The position numbers and the translations under genes were made by a program. The notes under the pieces were generated by a model. The model was not told where the DNA came from. It worked only from the letters and a program-made list of their open reading frames with translations, and did not search any database. Of a stretch of DNA of 64,000 nucleotides, positions 41,008-47,045 are shown in pieces; position 1 is the stretch's first letter, and each line of letters starts with the position of its first letter. This DNA comes from Alitabrizicola rongguiensis (lineage in GTDB: Bacteria > Pseudomonadota > Alphaproteobacteria > Rhodobacterales > Rhodobacteraceae), in NCBI RefSeq assembly GCF_021491355.1, contig NZ_JAKENF010000002.1, forward strand, positions 868,001 through 932,000, in the 5' to 3' direction.

Positions 41008-41778
41008 ATGCTGACCCTCATTAGCCATCCCGCCCAGACCGCCACCGATGCACTGCCCCTGGTAATCGCCCACGGTCTGTTCGGCTGTGGCAGGAACTGG
41101 GGCGTCATCGCCCGCCGCCTCTCGGACAGGCGCGACGTGTACGCGGTCGACATGCGCAACCATGGCGACAGCGCCTGGACCCCGACCCACAGCTACTTCG
41201 ATCTTGCGGCGGATCTGGCCGAAGTTATCGGATCGATTGGCGGGAAGGCAGACCTTCTTGGCCACTCGATGGGGGGAAAGGCATCCATGACGCTTGCCCT
41301 GACCCAAGGCGACCTGATCCGCCGGCTCGTCGTGGCCGACATCGCGCCTGTAGCCTATGAGCACGATCAGTCGCGCCACATCGACGCAATGCGGGCGCTC
41401 GACCTGACCGGCCTCAAGGGGCGCAGCGAAGCCGATCGTCGGTTTGCTGCGCTGGTTCCTGATGACTCTCTGCGCGCCTTCTTCCTGCAATCGCTCGACT
41501 TGCGGAGCGATCCGCCGCGCTGGCGGCTGAACTTGGATACACTGGAAGCCGAAATGCCAAAGATCGTCGGCTGGCCCGATCCGCCCGGCCACTTCGAAGG
41601 AGCGGCACTTTTCCTGACCGGTGCGGACTCCCACTACGTCAAGCCCGAGGATCGCGCCCGGATCCTTTCCCTGTTTCCGCGCGCGCGCTTTGCGAAGCTT
41701 CCCGGGGCAGGCCACTGGCTGCATGCAGAAAAGCCGCGTGAGTTCGAGGAAACCGTGCGCGTCTTTCTCGAGGCGTGA
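41008..41778 (+). CDS. Alpha/beta-hydrolase (YbfF-like esterase)
   Basis: A 256-residue alpha/beta-hydrolase. The oxyanion motif HGLFGCGRNWG, the nucleophile elbow LGHSMGGKA, an acid in FLTGADSHY and the catalytic histidine in GAGHWLHAEKP give the full triad. VDMRNHGDSAW is typical of the YbfF/ABHD11-like esterases. It acts on a small ester or thioester; the substrate is unknown. It meets the cytochrome b561 gene stop to stop. Confidence 0.9.
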   Translation: MLTLISHPAQTATDALPLVIAHGLFGCGRNWGVIARRLSDRRDVYAVDMRNHGDSAWTPTHSYFDLAADLAEVIGSIGGKADLLGHSMGGKASMTLALTQGDLIRRLVVADIAPVAYEHDQSRHIDAMRALDLTGLKGRSEADRRFAALVPDDSLRAFFLQSLDLRSDPPRWRLNLDTLEAEMPKIVGWPDPPGHFEGAALFLTGADSHYVKPEDRARILSLFPRARFAKLPGAGHWLHAEKPREFEETVRVFLEA

Positions 41779-42264
41779 TCAGGCCTCGGGCTGCCGCATC
41801 CGGTTCAAGAGATTGTCCTTCAGCCCGAACTGGTGCCAAAGCGCCGCCGCGATGTGGAGAACCGCCAGGATCAGGATCGCGGGCTTCATCGCCTCGTGGA
41901 CTTCCGCTGCCGAGGCGATCCCGCCGAACCAGGCCGCAAGCCCGGTCATTGGGGTGACGATCAGCAGAGCATAGAGCAGCCAATGCACAAGGCCGGCTGC
42001 CTTCTGTTGCAGCCCCGCCCCCAACGCCTCAGGCGCGCCGCGGGTGAAGCGCAGGCCAAGCCGCCACAGCACCAAGAGCAGGATCACGATGCCAAGACCG
42101 ATGTGCAACCATGCCAAGGTACCCGTCTGTGACGGCTCCCCTCGCTCGACGGCCCGCCACGCGCCCTTTATCCCGTCTTCCAGAAAGAGCTGCGGCACCA
42201 GCAGAATCGCGACGATCCAGTGAAGAGAGATCTGGGTTCTCGAATAGCCCTTGGGCGTCGGCAT
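41779..42264 (-). CDS. Cytochrome b561 family protein
   Basis: A 161-residue membrane protein with four transmembrane helices and the cytochrome b561 (YodB/CybB) pattern: SRTQISLHWIVAILL with the first heme histidine, LHIGLGIVILLLVLWRLGLRF, LVHWLLYALLIVTPMTGLAAWF, and LHIAAALWHQF. It probably binds two b hemes and moves electrons from ubiquinol. It is the second gene, 72 bp after a small membrane protein that has an FNR box, and could share that promoter. Confidence 0.9.
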   Translation of the reverse strand: MPTPKGYSRTQISLHWIVAILLVPQLFLEDGIKGAWRAVERGEPSQTGTLAWLHIGLGIVILLLVLWRLGLRFTRGAPEALGAGLQQKAAGLVHWLLYALLIVTPMTGLAAWFGGIASAAEVHEAMKPAILILAVLHIAAALWHQFGLKDNLLNRMRQPEA

Positions 42265-42336
42265 ATGCGCCTCCTCAGTTCGGCGATCTGATAGGGACGC
42301 AGCCTAACCTACCCTATCCCTTGCACCAGAGCGAAA

Positions 42337-42513
42337 TCACGCAAGCCGCCTTGCAATTATCGCACTGACCGGAATTGCGACCACGGCCCCCAGGACTGCG
42401 GCCGCAATGATTGCCTTGGCCGTGAAATAGCCCATGGACAACACCGCCACGATCGCCATGCCGGCCAGACTTACGCCCGCCATCGAATAGATCACCATCA
42501 TCAGCCGCGTCAT
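42337..42513 (-). CDS. 58-residue two-helix membrane protein
   Basis: Read from the sequence: MTRLMMVIYSMAGVSLAG opens the protein, with two hydrophobic helices and the end AIIARRLA. The ATG at 42513 has a strong GTAGGAGGG site. Proteins of this form are widespread in Rhodobacterales and, from memory, often carry the misleading label CTP synthetase. A perfect FNR box lies 66-79 bp upstream, so it is probably induced at low oxygen. Molecular function unknown. Confidence 0.8.
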   Translation of the reverse strand: MTRLMMVIYSMAGVSLAGMAIVAVLSMGYFTAKAIIAAAVLGAVVAIPVSAIIARRLA

Positions 42514-42578
42514 TGCCCGACCCTCCTACAGATCAAATTGTTCGAATGTGAAAATGGCTCCACAAAGGGGGCCACTCC

Positions 42579-42592
42579 TTGATCCGGATCAA
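42579..42592. promoter_or_regulatory. Perfect FNR/FnrL box
   Basis: TTGATCCGGATCAA matches TTGAT-N4-ATCAA at every defined position and is a full 14-bp palindrome. Its centre is 72 bp upstream of the small membrane protein start, so a -41.5 site would give a leader of about 30 bases. It is also 15 bp past the end of frcA. Confidence 0.75.
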
Positions 42593-42607
42593 CTGGATGT
42601 GCGGTTT

Positions 42608-43387
42608 TTAGGCTGCGACGGCTTCGCGCGGCGGTTCCTTGGCGCCGGTCATGAAGGCCACGGCATCGGACATCGTGTAGTCCTTGGGATTGATGACGCA
42701 CAGCCGCCGGCCAAGCCGATGCACATGGATGCGGTCCGCCACTTCGAACACATGCGGCATGTTGTGGCTGATGAGCACGATCGGCAGCCCGCGCCGCTTC
42801 ACGTCAAGGATCAGTTCCAGCACGCGCCGGCTCTCCTTCACCCCAAGAGCCGCCGTCGGTTCGTCCATGATGACGACCTTGGAGCCGAAAGCGGCAGCCC
42901 GTGCCACGGCCACACCTTGGCGCTGGCCGCCGGAAAGGGTTTCCACAGCCTGGCCGATGTTCTGGATGGTCATCAGGCCAAGCTCGGTCAGCTTCTCGCG
43001 GGCCCTCTTTTCCATTGCGTTGCGGTCAAGCATTCTGAACCACTGGCCAAGCGGCCCTGGTTTGCGGATCTCGCGCCCCAGGAACATGTTGTCCGAGATG
43101 GATAGCGCCGGAGACAAGGCGAGGTTCTGGTAGACGGTCTCGATCCCGGCATTGCGCGCTTCCATCGGATTGGAAAACTGCATCACTTGGCCATCCAGCC
43201 GGATTTCGCCCTCATCCGGAGTGACGGCGCCGCAAAGCGCCTTGATGAGCGTGGATTTCCCGGCGCCGTTGTCACCGATGACGGCGAGGATCTCGCCCGG
43301 CATCAGATCGAAATCGGCATTGTCGAGGGCAGTTACCCGGCCATAGCGCTTGACGAGGCCACGGGCAGTCAGAACGGGTTGCGTCAT
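42608..43387 (-). CDS. frcA: Sugar ABC transporter ATP-binding protein (fructose type)
   Basis: A 259-residue single-domain ABC ATPase: Walker A GDNGAGKSTLIKAL, signature LSGGQRQGVAVARA, Walker B VVIMDEPTAALG, and H-loop VLISHNMPHVF. Ribose-type transporters usually have a two-domain ATPase; the one-domain form is typical of FrcA from the fructose/mannose/ribose system of rhizobia. It powers import through FrcC. Third in frcBCA. Confidence 0.88.
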   Translation of the reverse strand: MTQPVLTARGLVKRYGRVTALDNADFDLMPGEILAVIGDNGAGKSTLIKALCGAVTPDEGEIRLDGQVMQFSNPMEARNAGIETVYQNLALSPALSISDNMFLGREIRKPGPLGQWFRMLDRNAMEKRAREKLTELGLMTIQNIGQAVETLSGGQRQGVAVARAAAFGSKVVIMDEPTAALGVKESRRVLELILDVKRRGLPIVLISHNMPHVFEVADRIHVHRLGRRLCVINPKDYTMSDAVAFMTGAKEPPREAVAA

Positions 43388-43399
43388 TTGAGCCTCCTC

Positions 43400-44461
43400 T
43401 TAGCCCGAAACCTTGCGGATCCACTGGTCGACCGACACGGCGGCGATGATCAGCACACCCGTCAGCAGCACTTTCCATTGCGGATCGGCGTTCATCATGT
43501 TCAGACCCATGCTCATGACGCCCACGATAAGCGCCCCGAACAGCGTGCCAAGGATCGAGCCGCGTCCGCCAAAGAGCGAAATCCCCCCAATCACGGCCGC
43601 GGTGATGGCCTGCAGGTTGAAGTCGGTGACGACCGTCGAAGGAGAGATTGAGCCGTTGCGGCCGATCGAGACCCATGCGGCAAGACCCGCAATCAGGCCT
43701 GCCAGGGTATAGGTCGCGATCAGGACCTTGGAGGTCTGGATGCCGGCCAGCTGCGCGGCATCGGGATCGTCGCCCACGGCGTAGATGTGGCGCCCGAACG
43801 CGGTGTAGTTCAGCATGTACCACAGGACGAAATAGAGGGCGATCATCGCCACGACGCCCAGGGTCACGACGGCACCGCCCAGTTTGAACGACATGCCGAA
43901 GATGTGCAGCCAAGGCGTTGCAGCGGTCAGGTCGGCCTCGCGCATGGTCTCGTTTGCTGAATAGATCAGCACGATTGCCATGATGATGTTCCAGGTGCCG
44001 AGCGTCACGATGAACGGCGGCAGCTTGACCCGCGCGACCAGGAAGCCGTTCAGCAAACCGCATGCGCCTGCCACGATGAAGCCGAGTGCAAGCGCGATTA
44101 TGGCCCAAAGGCCGTAGCTCACGACGGCATTGCCCATGATGACGAAGGCAAAGACCATGATGACGCCGATCGACAGATCGATTCCAGCTGTCAGCACGAC
44201 CAGGGTCTGTGCCGCCGCAAGGATGCCGACGACCGCGACCTGCTGCATGATTAGGGTCAGCGTGTATGCGGAAAAGAACCGCTCTCCCCGCGCCAGGCCA
44301 AAGAAGACGATAAGCGCGACCAGAACGATCAGCGGAACCATCGCCGGGTTGGAATGCAGGAAATGCTGGAGGCGGTGCAGGAAAGACCGCTTCTCTTCGA
44401 AATGCGCGACGTTGGTCGCACTTCCCGATAGGACCTTCTCGAATTCCTGTGGCTGACTCAT
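43400..44461 (-). CDS. frcC: Sugar ABC transporter permease (fructose type)
   Basis: A 353-residue permease with about nine to ten transmembrane helices of the ribose/fructose (BPD_transp_2) family, with AGIDLSIGVIMVFAFVIMGNAV and IAAVIGGISLFGGRGSILGT as conserved stretches (listed only by AGIDLSIG and GGISLFGGRGS). An N-terminal cytoplasmic part of about 40 residues precedes the first helix. The ATG at 44461 is chosen over an upstream in-frame start. It lies 12 bp before frcA. Confidence 0.9.
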   Translation of the reverse strand: MSQPQEFEKVLSGSATNVAHFEEKRSFLHRLQHFLHSNPAMVPLIVLVALIVFFGLARGERFFSAYTLTLIMQQVAVVGILAAAQTLVVLTAGIDLSIGVIMVFAFVIMGNAVVSYGLWAIIALALGFIVAGACGLLNGFLVARVKLPPFIVTLGTWNIIMAIVLIYSANETMREADLTAATPWLHIFGMSFKLGGAVVTLGVVAMIALYFVLWYMLNYTAFGRHIYAVGDDPDAAQLAGIQTSKVLIATYTLAGLIAGLAAWVSIGRNGSISPSTVVTDFNLQAITAAVIGGISLFGGRGSILGTLFGALIVGVMSMGLNMMNADPQWKVLLTGVLIIAAVSVDQWIRKVSG

Positions 44462-44511
44462 GGTGCCTCCCCTGTCCCCATGCAGCACCGAACGCGGTGC
44501 GCATCTTGAAT

Positions 44512-44535
44512 CAGGGCGGCCCGAAAGCCGCCCTG
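44512..44535 (-). promoter_or_regulatory. Hairpin between frcB and frcC, possible attenuator
   Basis: CAGGGCGGC (44512-44520) and GCCGCCCTG (44527-44535) pair around CCGAAA in the 137-bp space after frcB. No T-run follows. Such stems commonly stabilise the upstream part of the mRNA so that the binding protein is made in excess. A smaller stem TCCCC-TTGC-GGGGA lies next to it. Confidence 0.5.
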
Positions 44536-44598
44536 CTTTCTCCCCTTGCGGGGATCATGCCGGGGGGAAAGCCCCAGCGCAATGATTGAGCTAGTGGA

Positions 44599-45627
44599 TC
44601 AGCCCCAGCAGAGCTCGGTGCCCTTGGTGGTGTCGATCGAGGGCACGCCAGCGGCCGGCTTGTCGGTCACTAGGTTCACGCCGGTATCGAAGAACGATTT
44701 GCCGGGGGTCGGCTGCGGCTTCTCGCCGGTGTCGGCCCACTTCTTGATCGCTTCGACGCCCAGAGCAGCCATCTGCAGCGGGTACTGCTGCGAGGTCGCG
44801 CCGATGACGCCTTCCTTCACCGCCGCAACGCCCGGGCAGCCGCCGTCGACCGACACGATCAGCACGTCGTTCTCCTTGCCGACGGCCTTCAGCGCCTGAT
44901 AGGCGCCGACGGCGGCCGGCTCGTTGATCGTGTGGATCACGTTGATGTCCGGGTCTTTCTGCAGAAGGTTCTCCATCGCCTTGCGGCCGCCTTCTTCGTT
45001 GCCGTTGGTCACGTCGTGGCCGACGATCCGGGGATCATCCTCGTCGCCGATCTTGTTGGCGTCCTTCGGGTCGATCCCGAAGCCGATCATGAAGCCCTGG
45101 TCGCGCAGCACGTCCACGGTCGGCTGCGACGGGGTCAGGTCGAGGAAGCCGATCTTGGCGGTCTTTGCGCCTTCGCCCATGGTCGCGGCGGCCCAAGCGC
45201 CGATCAGCTTGCCGGCTTCAAGGTTGTCGGTCGCAAAGGTCGCGTCAGCGGCGTCAGCCGGGTCGAGGGGCGTGTCGAGCGCGATCACGACCATACCGGC
45301 CGCCTGCGCTTTCTTCACGGCATCGACGATTGCCTTGGTGTCCGAAGCGGCGATCAGGATACCTTTGGCGCCATCGGCGATGCAGGCCTCGATCGCAGCC
45401 ACCTGGCTGTCATGGTCGCCGTCAACCTTGCCGGCAAAGGTCTTGAGGGTCACGCCCAGTTCGGCGGCTTTCTTTTCTGCGCCTTCCTTCATCTTCACGA
45501 AGAAGGGGTTGGTGTCGGTCTTGGTGATAAGGCAAGCCGTCACGTCGGCGGCCGAGGCCGAAGTGGCGGTCATCAGAGCCGCAGTCGCAGCGCCGAGAAT
45601 GAGTCCGCCAAGGGTGCTTTTGTGCAT
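44599..45627 (-). CDS. frcB: Sugar ABC transporter substrate-binding protein (fructose type)
   Basis: A 342-residue periplasmic binding protein of the Peripla_BP_4 family. It has a Sec signal peptide ([20 protein letters not shown], cleavage after SAA) and conserved [38 protein letters not shown] and [10 protein letters not shown]. The closest named type is FrcB for fructose, which also accepts mannose and ribose in rhizobia. First gene of frcBCA, divergent from the ROK regulator. Confidence 0.9.
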
Positions 45628-45745
45628 CACGGTATATCCTCCCGAATGAATGTCACGGCCACCCTTCTCGGCGGTCCGTCGCGCGGCAGCTCCGTAACCC
45701 CTGCCGTGCGGCCTTACATGAACCCGATTCCGCCTCGACGTCAAG

Positions 45746-45768
45746 ATAATTAAATCACTCTGAATTAT
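45746..45768. promoter_or_regulatory. Likely FrcR operator between frcB and frcR
   Basis: Inverted repeat ATAATT (45746-45751) and AATTAT (45763-45768) with 11 bp between, in an AT-rich patch that stands out from the region. Minus-strand TTGACG (45738-45743) with TCATGT 17 bp on could be the frcB promoter, and plus-strand TTGACA (45771-45776) could serve frcR. The repeat sits between the two. Confidence 0.5.
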
Positions 45769-45842
45769 TATTGACAGATCGACTGCAACATCGCCAAATT
45801 CAGTCTGGGGGCCCGGTGCAGCACCGGGGCGAGGAGGACGTC

Positions 45843-47045
45843 GTGACCACCATCCAGGACTTGGCAGCGGACCGGGGCATTCCCGATCCGCCGCTCCTGC
45901 GAGGATCGAACCAAAGCGGGATGCGCGCGTATAACGAGCGGCTCGTGCTGTCCCTTGTGCGCCGAGACGGCGCCCTCTCGAAATCCGACATCGCACGTAT
46001 GACCGGGCTGTCAGCGCAGACCGTCTCGGTTATCATGCGCTCGCTTGAGGCAGATGGCCTGCTCGCCCGCGGCGAGCCGGTTCGCGGCAAGATCGGGCAG
46101 CCATCGGTGCCCATGTCGCTTGCGGCTGATGGCGCCTATTTCTTTGGCCTCAAGATCGGACGGCGTTCCGTCGATCTCGTTCTGATCGACCTCCTTGGTG
46201 AGCCAGTCGCGTTGCGCCGCCAAACCTATCGCTATCCGTCGCCTGATGCGGTGGTCGAATTCGTCTCAAAGAACCTGCCGGCCCTGACTGAAACGCTGTC
46301 CGCCGAACAAAGGCAGCGTATTGGAGGGCTGGGTGTCGCGATGCCGTTTCAGCTATGGAGTTGGGCGCAGCATATCGACTCGCCGCCCGGCGCCCTCGAT
46401 CTCTGGCAGGATTTCGACATCGCCACGGAGCTGTCGGCGTTGTGCGAGATGCCGGTCTATGTGCAGAACGATGCCACTGCCGCCTGCGGGGCCGAGCTTG
46501 TTTTCGGAACGGGCGACCGACCGCAGGACTTTCTCTATTTCTATATCGGGTTTTTCATCGGCGGCGGGCTTGTGCTCAACGGAAAGCTGTTCCCCGGACG
46601 CACCGGAAACGCCGCAGCCGTGGGGCCCCTTCCCGTTCCGGGACCGGACGGCAGGATGCGTCGCTTGATGACGATTGCCTCATTGTCAACGTTGGCGGAC
46701 GGGCTTCAGGAGGCCGGCGTCAACCCGGACCAACTCTGGGAAATGCCGGGGCCTTGGACCATACCTGCCTACGTGCTCGACCGCTGGATCGCGGGCGCGG
46801 CTGAGGGCCTGGCCAGCGCCACGCTAAGCGCTGCGACTCTGATCGAGATCGATACGGTGATGATCGATGGATGGATGCCATCCGACATCCGTGATCGGCT
46901 TGTCGAAGCGACAAATGCCGCTTTCCTCGGGCTAGATCTGGCAGGTGTTACGTTGCCGGTGATCCGCGCCGGCACGGTCGGCCCCCGGGCGCGTGAGCTT
47001 GGCGGTGCCGCGATTCCGCTTTCGCAGCGCTTCCTGGTTGACTAG
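45843..47045 (+). CDS. frcR: ROK-family transcriptional regulator of the frc operon
   Basis: A 400-residue NagC/XylR-type repressor. An N-terminal winged helix ([20 protein letters not shown] named as [13 protein letters not shown], then [10 protein letters not shown]) is followed by a ROK domain ([47 protein letters not shown]). The zinc-binding CxCGxxGCxE motif of ROK kinases is missing, consistent with a pure regulator. The GTG at 45843 has GAGGAGG upstream. It is divergent from frcBCA and probably binds a sugar or sugar phosphate. Confidence 0.88.

Follow-up and report, generated by a model that had tools for sequence, protein, structure and literature searches.

The locus lies in a 64-kb window of the Alitabrizicola rongguiensis genome (by the window we mean the whole stretch of DNA analysed) and is built around a short gene on the minus strand. 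This gene (42337..42513, stop included) begins with ATG and encodes a 58-residue, two-helix membrane protein; a Shine-Dalgarno sequence, AGGAGG (42522..42527, minus strand), can be read 8 nt before the start codon. Further upstream on the same strand stands an FNR box, TTGATCCGGATCAA (42579..42592), a perfect palindrome of the form TTGATN4ATCAA, centred 72 bp before the ATG. A reading of the locus made from the sequence alone (hereafter the sequence-only reading) had measured these 72 bp to the ribosome binding site, which is the wrong end point, since it is the start codon that lies 72 bp from the box centre. A second half-site, TTTGATCTGTAGGAG, is visible on the minus strand at about 42538-42530, overlapping the beginning of the ribosome binding site. 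The next ORF on the strand begins 72 bp past the stop of the small ORF and encodes a cytochrome b561 (41779..42264, minus strand; PF01292, 2e-25, 90.1 bits against a gathering score of 30.1), probably cotranscribed with the small gene. Beyond it lies a convergent gene (41008..41778, plus strand) which we take, from its sequence and not from a family scan, to encode an alpha/beta-hydrolase; it falls outside the unit and serves as a synteny marker. On the upstream side, the context is given by the ATP-binding gene of a sugar ABC transporter (42608..43387, minus strand), which ends 15 bp short of the box. It belongs to a transporter cluster of ribose/fructose type (ATPase, permease and binding protein, 42608-46000 of the window), and the divergent gene at 45771-47045 resembles one for a ROK-family regulator.

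The box is a rare object in this genome. It is the single TTGATN4ATCAA of the window, compared with a shuffle mean of 0.03 and at least one occurrence in 3 of 100 shuffles. The whole 4.2-Mb genome contains seven such sites, while the reversed pattern used as a control gives none. Other perfect boxes of the genome stand between what we take to be ccoN and uspA and before a presumed coxI, and a near-perfect one lies between the presumed fnrL and hemN, the gene names being read from the sequences. These are places of known FnrL action in Rhodobacter.

Several lines of evidence indicate that the small ORF is a real gene under purifying, protein-level selection. A BLAST-level search of 295 family genomes finds homologues in 142, and a profile built from 30 members finds them in 205 of 394, the remaining 189 showing no match at E<=0.001. 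In a class-wide sample the profile matches only 5 of 289 genomes, four of these five within the same family, Rhodobacteraceae; a search of the plasmid collection gives no match. Among the first 30 aligned members, R3, L4, L16, G18, G42 and P48 are invariant, and G18, G42 and P48 remain so across all 104 loci described below. The 15 closest pairs have pN/pS of 0.13-0.32; the three closest pairs of the window protein are more diverged, with pS of 0.54-0.68 and pN of 0.29-0.31, uncorrected for saturation. In the AlphaFold2 model (mean pLDDT 94) residues 2-26 and 32-57 form the two arms of a helical hairpin, with no charged residue inside the helices, and given the positive residues at both ends, both termini are probably cytoplasmic. 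The two-helix, 58-residue ORF with a strong ribosome binding site proposed earlier is thus borne out.

None of the libraries searched names the family to which the protein belongs. The window protein has no match in Pfam or NCBIfam, and neither it nor the 30 members match CydX/YbgT or any other named small-subunit family there above the curated cut-off; a PDB sequence search with the protein gives no match, and Foldseek against the PDB returns nothing below E 2.5. Weak matches to Pfam DUF4229 (PF14012) appear in 17 of the 30 members at E<=0.1, the best at 1.2e-4, the window protein itself having none. 'CTP synthetase' and similar names, possible misannotations of the family, led to no paper in a literature search and are not used here. 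In several genomes the small gene occurs as two or three diverged tandem copies (L015/L117, L092, L114, L115, L116, L118, L066, L090, L101, L050). Some of these copies end in an extended charged C-terminus (..DPDWDE..), and from several an FNR box at the usual distance is missing.

The association of the box with the small gene is not confined to the window. We read the loci of 104 genomes, the window's included, out of the 205 with a match (the other 101 being left out); these are mostly the best scorers together with several multi-copy genomes, and one best-scoring copy per genome was counted, so that paralogous copies (e.g. L015, L092, L114-L118), several of which lack a box at the usual distance, do not enter the box counts. 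A box centred 58-85 bp before the ATG is perfect in 12 of the 103 other genomes and present with at most one mismatch in 65, at most two in 98 and at most three in all 103. At control distances of 120-147 bp and 200-227 bp the corresponding counts are 0, 0, 0 and 3 in each case, and column shuffles of the upstream stretch yield on average 0.76 boxes at up to two mismatches, with a maximum of 4. The box is kept in these relatives; its absence there is what the sequence-only reading had named as counting against it. Neighbouring genes in the same loci do not share this feature: no box stands 50-95 bp before any of 53 hydrolase or 26 b561 genes; for two of the hydrolase genes a box lies at another place within 130 bp. 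The box, its spacing and the small protein recur over about a hundred related genera.

The two halves of the box differ in character. Throughout the 104 upstream regions the right half-site, ATCAA, hardly varies and the left half is much looser. The conserved stretch also extends past the canonical motif (+8 to +10 from the centre), where A/G-G follows ATCAA and a G occupies +9 in 93% of loci.

A box-centred alignment of the same 104 upstream regions reveals a second common element, T/C-A-n-n-n-T, at +30 to +35, with A in 71% of loci at +31 and T in 47% at +30 and in 41% at +35. The mean number of TATAAT matches at this offset is 2.34, compared with 0.97-2.14 at other offsets. If the element is given the usual -10 placing of -12 to -7, the box falls at -41.5, an activator position established for FNR and CRP. 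The geometry across the 104 loci thus points to a class II activator site, and the window has the corresponding TTGAT-N4-ATCAA site together with a weak hexamer: the predicted -10 element is CATTTT (42551..42556, minus strand), 30-35 bp past the box centre, with three of six positions matching TATAAT. A sigma-70 consensus scan did not report it, as is expected of an activator-dependent promoter. The predicted transcription start would lie near 42544 and leave a leader of about 31 nt. We found no terminator-like site in 41700-42700 and no Rfam family in 41500-43500, and the RNA between the small gene and b561 folds no better than shuffled sequences.

How general is the pairing with cytochrome b561? 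Among the 104 loci, 21, the window's included, have b561 after the small gene in the same orientation and 6 have it before, again on the same strand; in 77 it is not found in the flanks. As these flanks are 1.5-2 kb in nearly all loci, a more distant b561 would be missed. The hydrolase gene lies beside the small gene in 65 of the 104. A congener (G274) keeps the b561, hydrolase and sugar-transporter neighbours and has no match to the small protein; its nearest box-like site, CTGATCCGCATCAG, has two mismatches and lies 288 bp before b561. The place taken in the window by the box and the small gene is occupied in this congener by a kinase-like gene, situated between the transporter ATPase and b561 (L207 2275-2916). 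The locus counts and the congener together suggest that b561 is optional and that the small gene is the usual owner of the box. The partnership with b561 proposed by the sequence-only reading accordingly stands as a possibility for the window, where the two genes are adjacent, and fails as a general rule.

What protein could recognise the box? Eight places in the genome have the Crp/Fnr helix-turn-helix as their best match, and one of the eight alone (L119) has four cysteines within the first 60 residues (CHDCPIRHRAVCARC) together with an ETVSR helix. We take N-terminal cysteines and an ETVSR recognition helix as the marks of FnrL, and hence this protein to be FnrL; an FNR-type regulator with cluster cysteines and an E-x-x-S-R helix is in any case encoded. 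A second Crp/Fnr protein (L126) has an E-x-x-S-R helix (AENLSR) without N-terminal cysteines and may be DNR-like.

In vivo evidence comes from Rhodobacter sphaeroides. One of the genomes (G051) has a PufL identical to the R. sphaeroides query sequence, and the majority of its perfect boxes map within 5-88 bp of sites in Table 2 of PMC2908626; on these two grounds we take it as R. sphaeroides 2.4.1. Its homologue of the small gene is at 2566089-2566262, preceded by the box TTGATGCGGATCAA at 2566006-2566019, and it is followed, as in the window, by b561, the convergent hydrolase and one more shared gene. The box corresponds to a published FnrL ChIP-chip site: PMC2908626 gives a peak at 2565774-2566660, with TTGATgcggATCAA at 2566094 and positive for sigma-70, listed as activating ('+') RSP0820, a cytochrome b561. 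The passages of PMC4263372 concerned with this site report a 13-fold FnrL ChIP-seq signal at RSP_0820, binding of CrpK to the same site, and a PrrA target written 'RSP_0820-RSP_6134', in which RSP_6134 is likely the small ORF. In its R. sphaeroides orthologue the promoter is thus a known FnrL target, listed under the name of its second gene. The RSP_0820 operon and the window agree in gene order and in the type and place of the box, and they differ in description: the relevant passages of PMC2908626 and PMC4263372 name b561 alone. The FnrL ChIP data of relatives, to which the sequence-only reading had pointed as a check, thus place the orthologous R. sphaeroides box within an FnrL peak of positive effect.

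Two other R. sphaeroides sites were considered and set aside. RSP_6116, a hypothetical gene and strong FnrL target, was rejected as the orthologue since its box at 2206676 precedes a different ORF, and the orphan FnrL site at 792521 lacks an adjacent small-gene homologue. The latter (L186, G051:C4:792521-792534) is an FnrL and sigma-70 ChIP site without an assigned gene, situated at an ORF end. The second family match in R. sphaeroides is a divergent paralogue with a charged C-terminus (L184, G051:C4:848763-848936); no FNR box was seen in the 300 bp read before it.

Data from Rhodobacter capsulatus may bear on the same region. According to PMC4634722, RCC00426 is the orthologue of RSP0820, and the hypothetical gene RCC00424, two gene numbers away, has an FnrL ChIP site, ATGATTCAGATCAA, with 20-fold enrichment and an expression change of +3.51; the same paper calls the control of RSP0820 unique to R. 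sphaeroides. RCC00424 is a candidate counterpart of the small gene. A full-text literature search on RSP_6134, RSP_0820 and rcc00424 gave no paper shown to study the small protein.

The conserved box, the -10 geometry, the encoded FnrL and the R. sphaeroides ChIP data support the low-oxygen control of FnrL type that had been proposed from the sequence, and FNR-type activation of the small gene at low oxygen is very probable, with FnrL as the acting protein by extension from R. sphaeroides. The box might instead be used mainly by another Crp/Fnr regulator, an NO sensor of DNR/NnrR type or CrpK, so that the signal would be NO or something else and not oxygen through FnrL. The second protein with an AENLSR helix and no N-terminal cysteines would be a candidate for this role, Dinoroseobacter shibae is described as using FnrL along with three Dnr regulators, and the RSP_0820 site is common to FnrL and CrpK according to PMC4263372. 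We nevertheless consider such a main user unlikely: FnrL occupies the orthologous R. sphaeroides site in the published data, R. sphaeroides is stated to be without a DNR orthologue, and FnrL is encoded in the genome studied here. Alternatively, the small gene could be transcribed at the end of the sugar transporter operon that precedes it, the box having a minor or repressing function, and the 15-bp distance from the last transporter gene to the box on the same strand would agree with this, as would the lack of a terminator-like site in 41700-42700. The upstream neighbours vary, however, R. sphaeroides for instance having a DEAD-box helicase gene there, and the box, the -10 element and their spacing are kept despite these changes, with the box at -41.5, an activator position; such read-through control is very unlikely. 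That FnrL is aimed at b561 and the small ORF is an incidental leader or translational element before it, as the assignment of the R. sphaeroides peak to RSP0820 in PMC2908626 and the place of b561 as the next gene on the strand in the window might suggest, is likewise very improbable, because the box is kept in 98 of 103 genomes although b561 lies downstream in 21 of 104 loci and is unseen in the flanks of 77, no box stands 50-95 bp before b561 in 26 loci, and the small ORF is under selection as a protein.

With low-oxygen activation by FnrL as the preferred reading, the following sequence of events can be envisaged. As oxygen falls, FnrL would keep its iron-sulphur cluster and dimerise on the box at -41.5, recruiting RNA polymerase to the -10 element at 42551-42556. 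Transcription from near 42544 would produce a short transcript with the gene for the 58-residue protein and then, in this genome, cytochrome b561, and the strong Shine-Dalgarno sequence would ensure translation of the small ORF into a helical hairpin of the inner membrane.

What could a protein of this kind contribute when oxygen is scarce? Its size, its regulation and the occasional pairing with b561 would suit a part in the structure or assembly of an electron-transfer complex used at low oxygen, and we tentatively suggest that it assists or stabilises such a membrane complex as an accessory subunit, for which b561 would be one candidate partner. CydX/YbgT and CcoQ, small accessory subunits of terminal oxidases, resemble it in being short, hydrophobic and co-expressed with genes of low-oxygen respiration. 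The small protein differs from them in that it matches no such family in Pfam or NCBIfam, has two helices and is mostly encoded in a transcription unit of its own. A link to photosynthesis is not apparent: the gene occurs in 73 of the 166 PufL-bearing genomes and in 132 of the 228 that lack PufL, labels inherited by descent for which a p-value is not independent evidence, and its presence does not follow photosynthesis.

The type of site described here is already known, and FnrL control of the R. sphaeroides operon is in print under the b561 name. What is new is that the box, the promoter geometry and the distance to the start codon follow the small gene, and not b561, in about a hundred genera. 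The small gene also lends itself readily to knock-out and pull-down in R. sphaeroides. The family may possibly serve the low-oxygen respiratory chain of Rhodobacteraceae as a dedicated assembly factor or small subunit, independent of photosynthesis, overlooked because it is short, and among the most constantly kept FNR-box targets. As the box follows the small gene, the unnamed 58-residue protein would be a constant part of the low-oxygen response.
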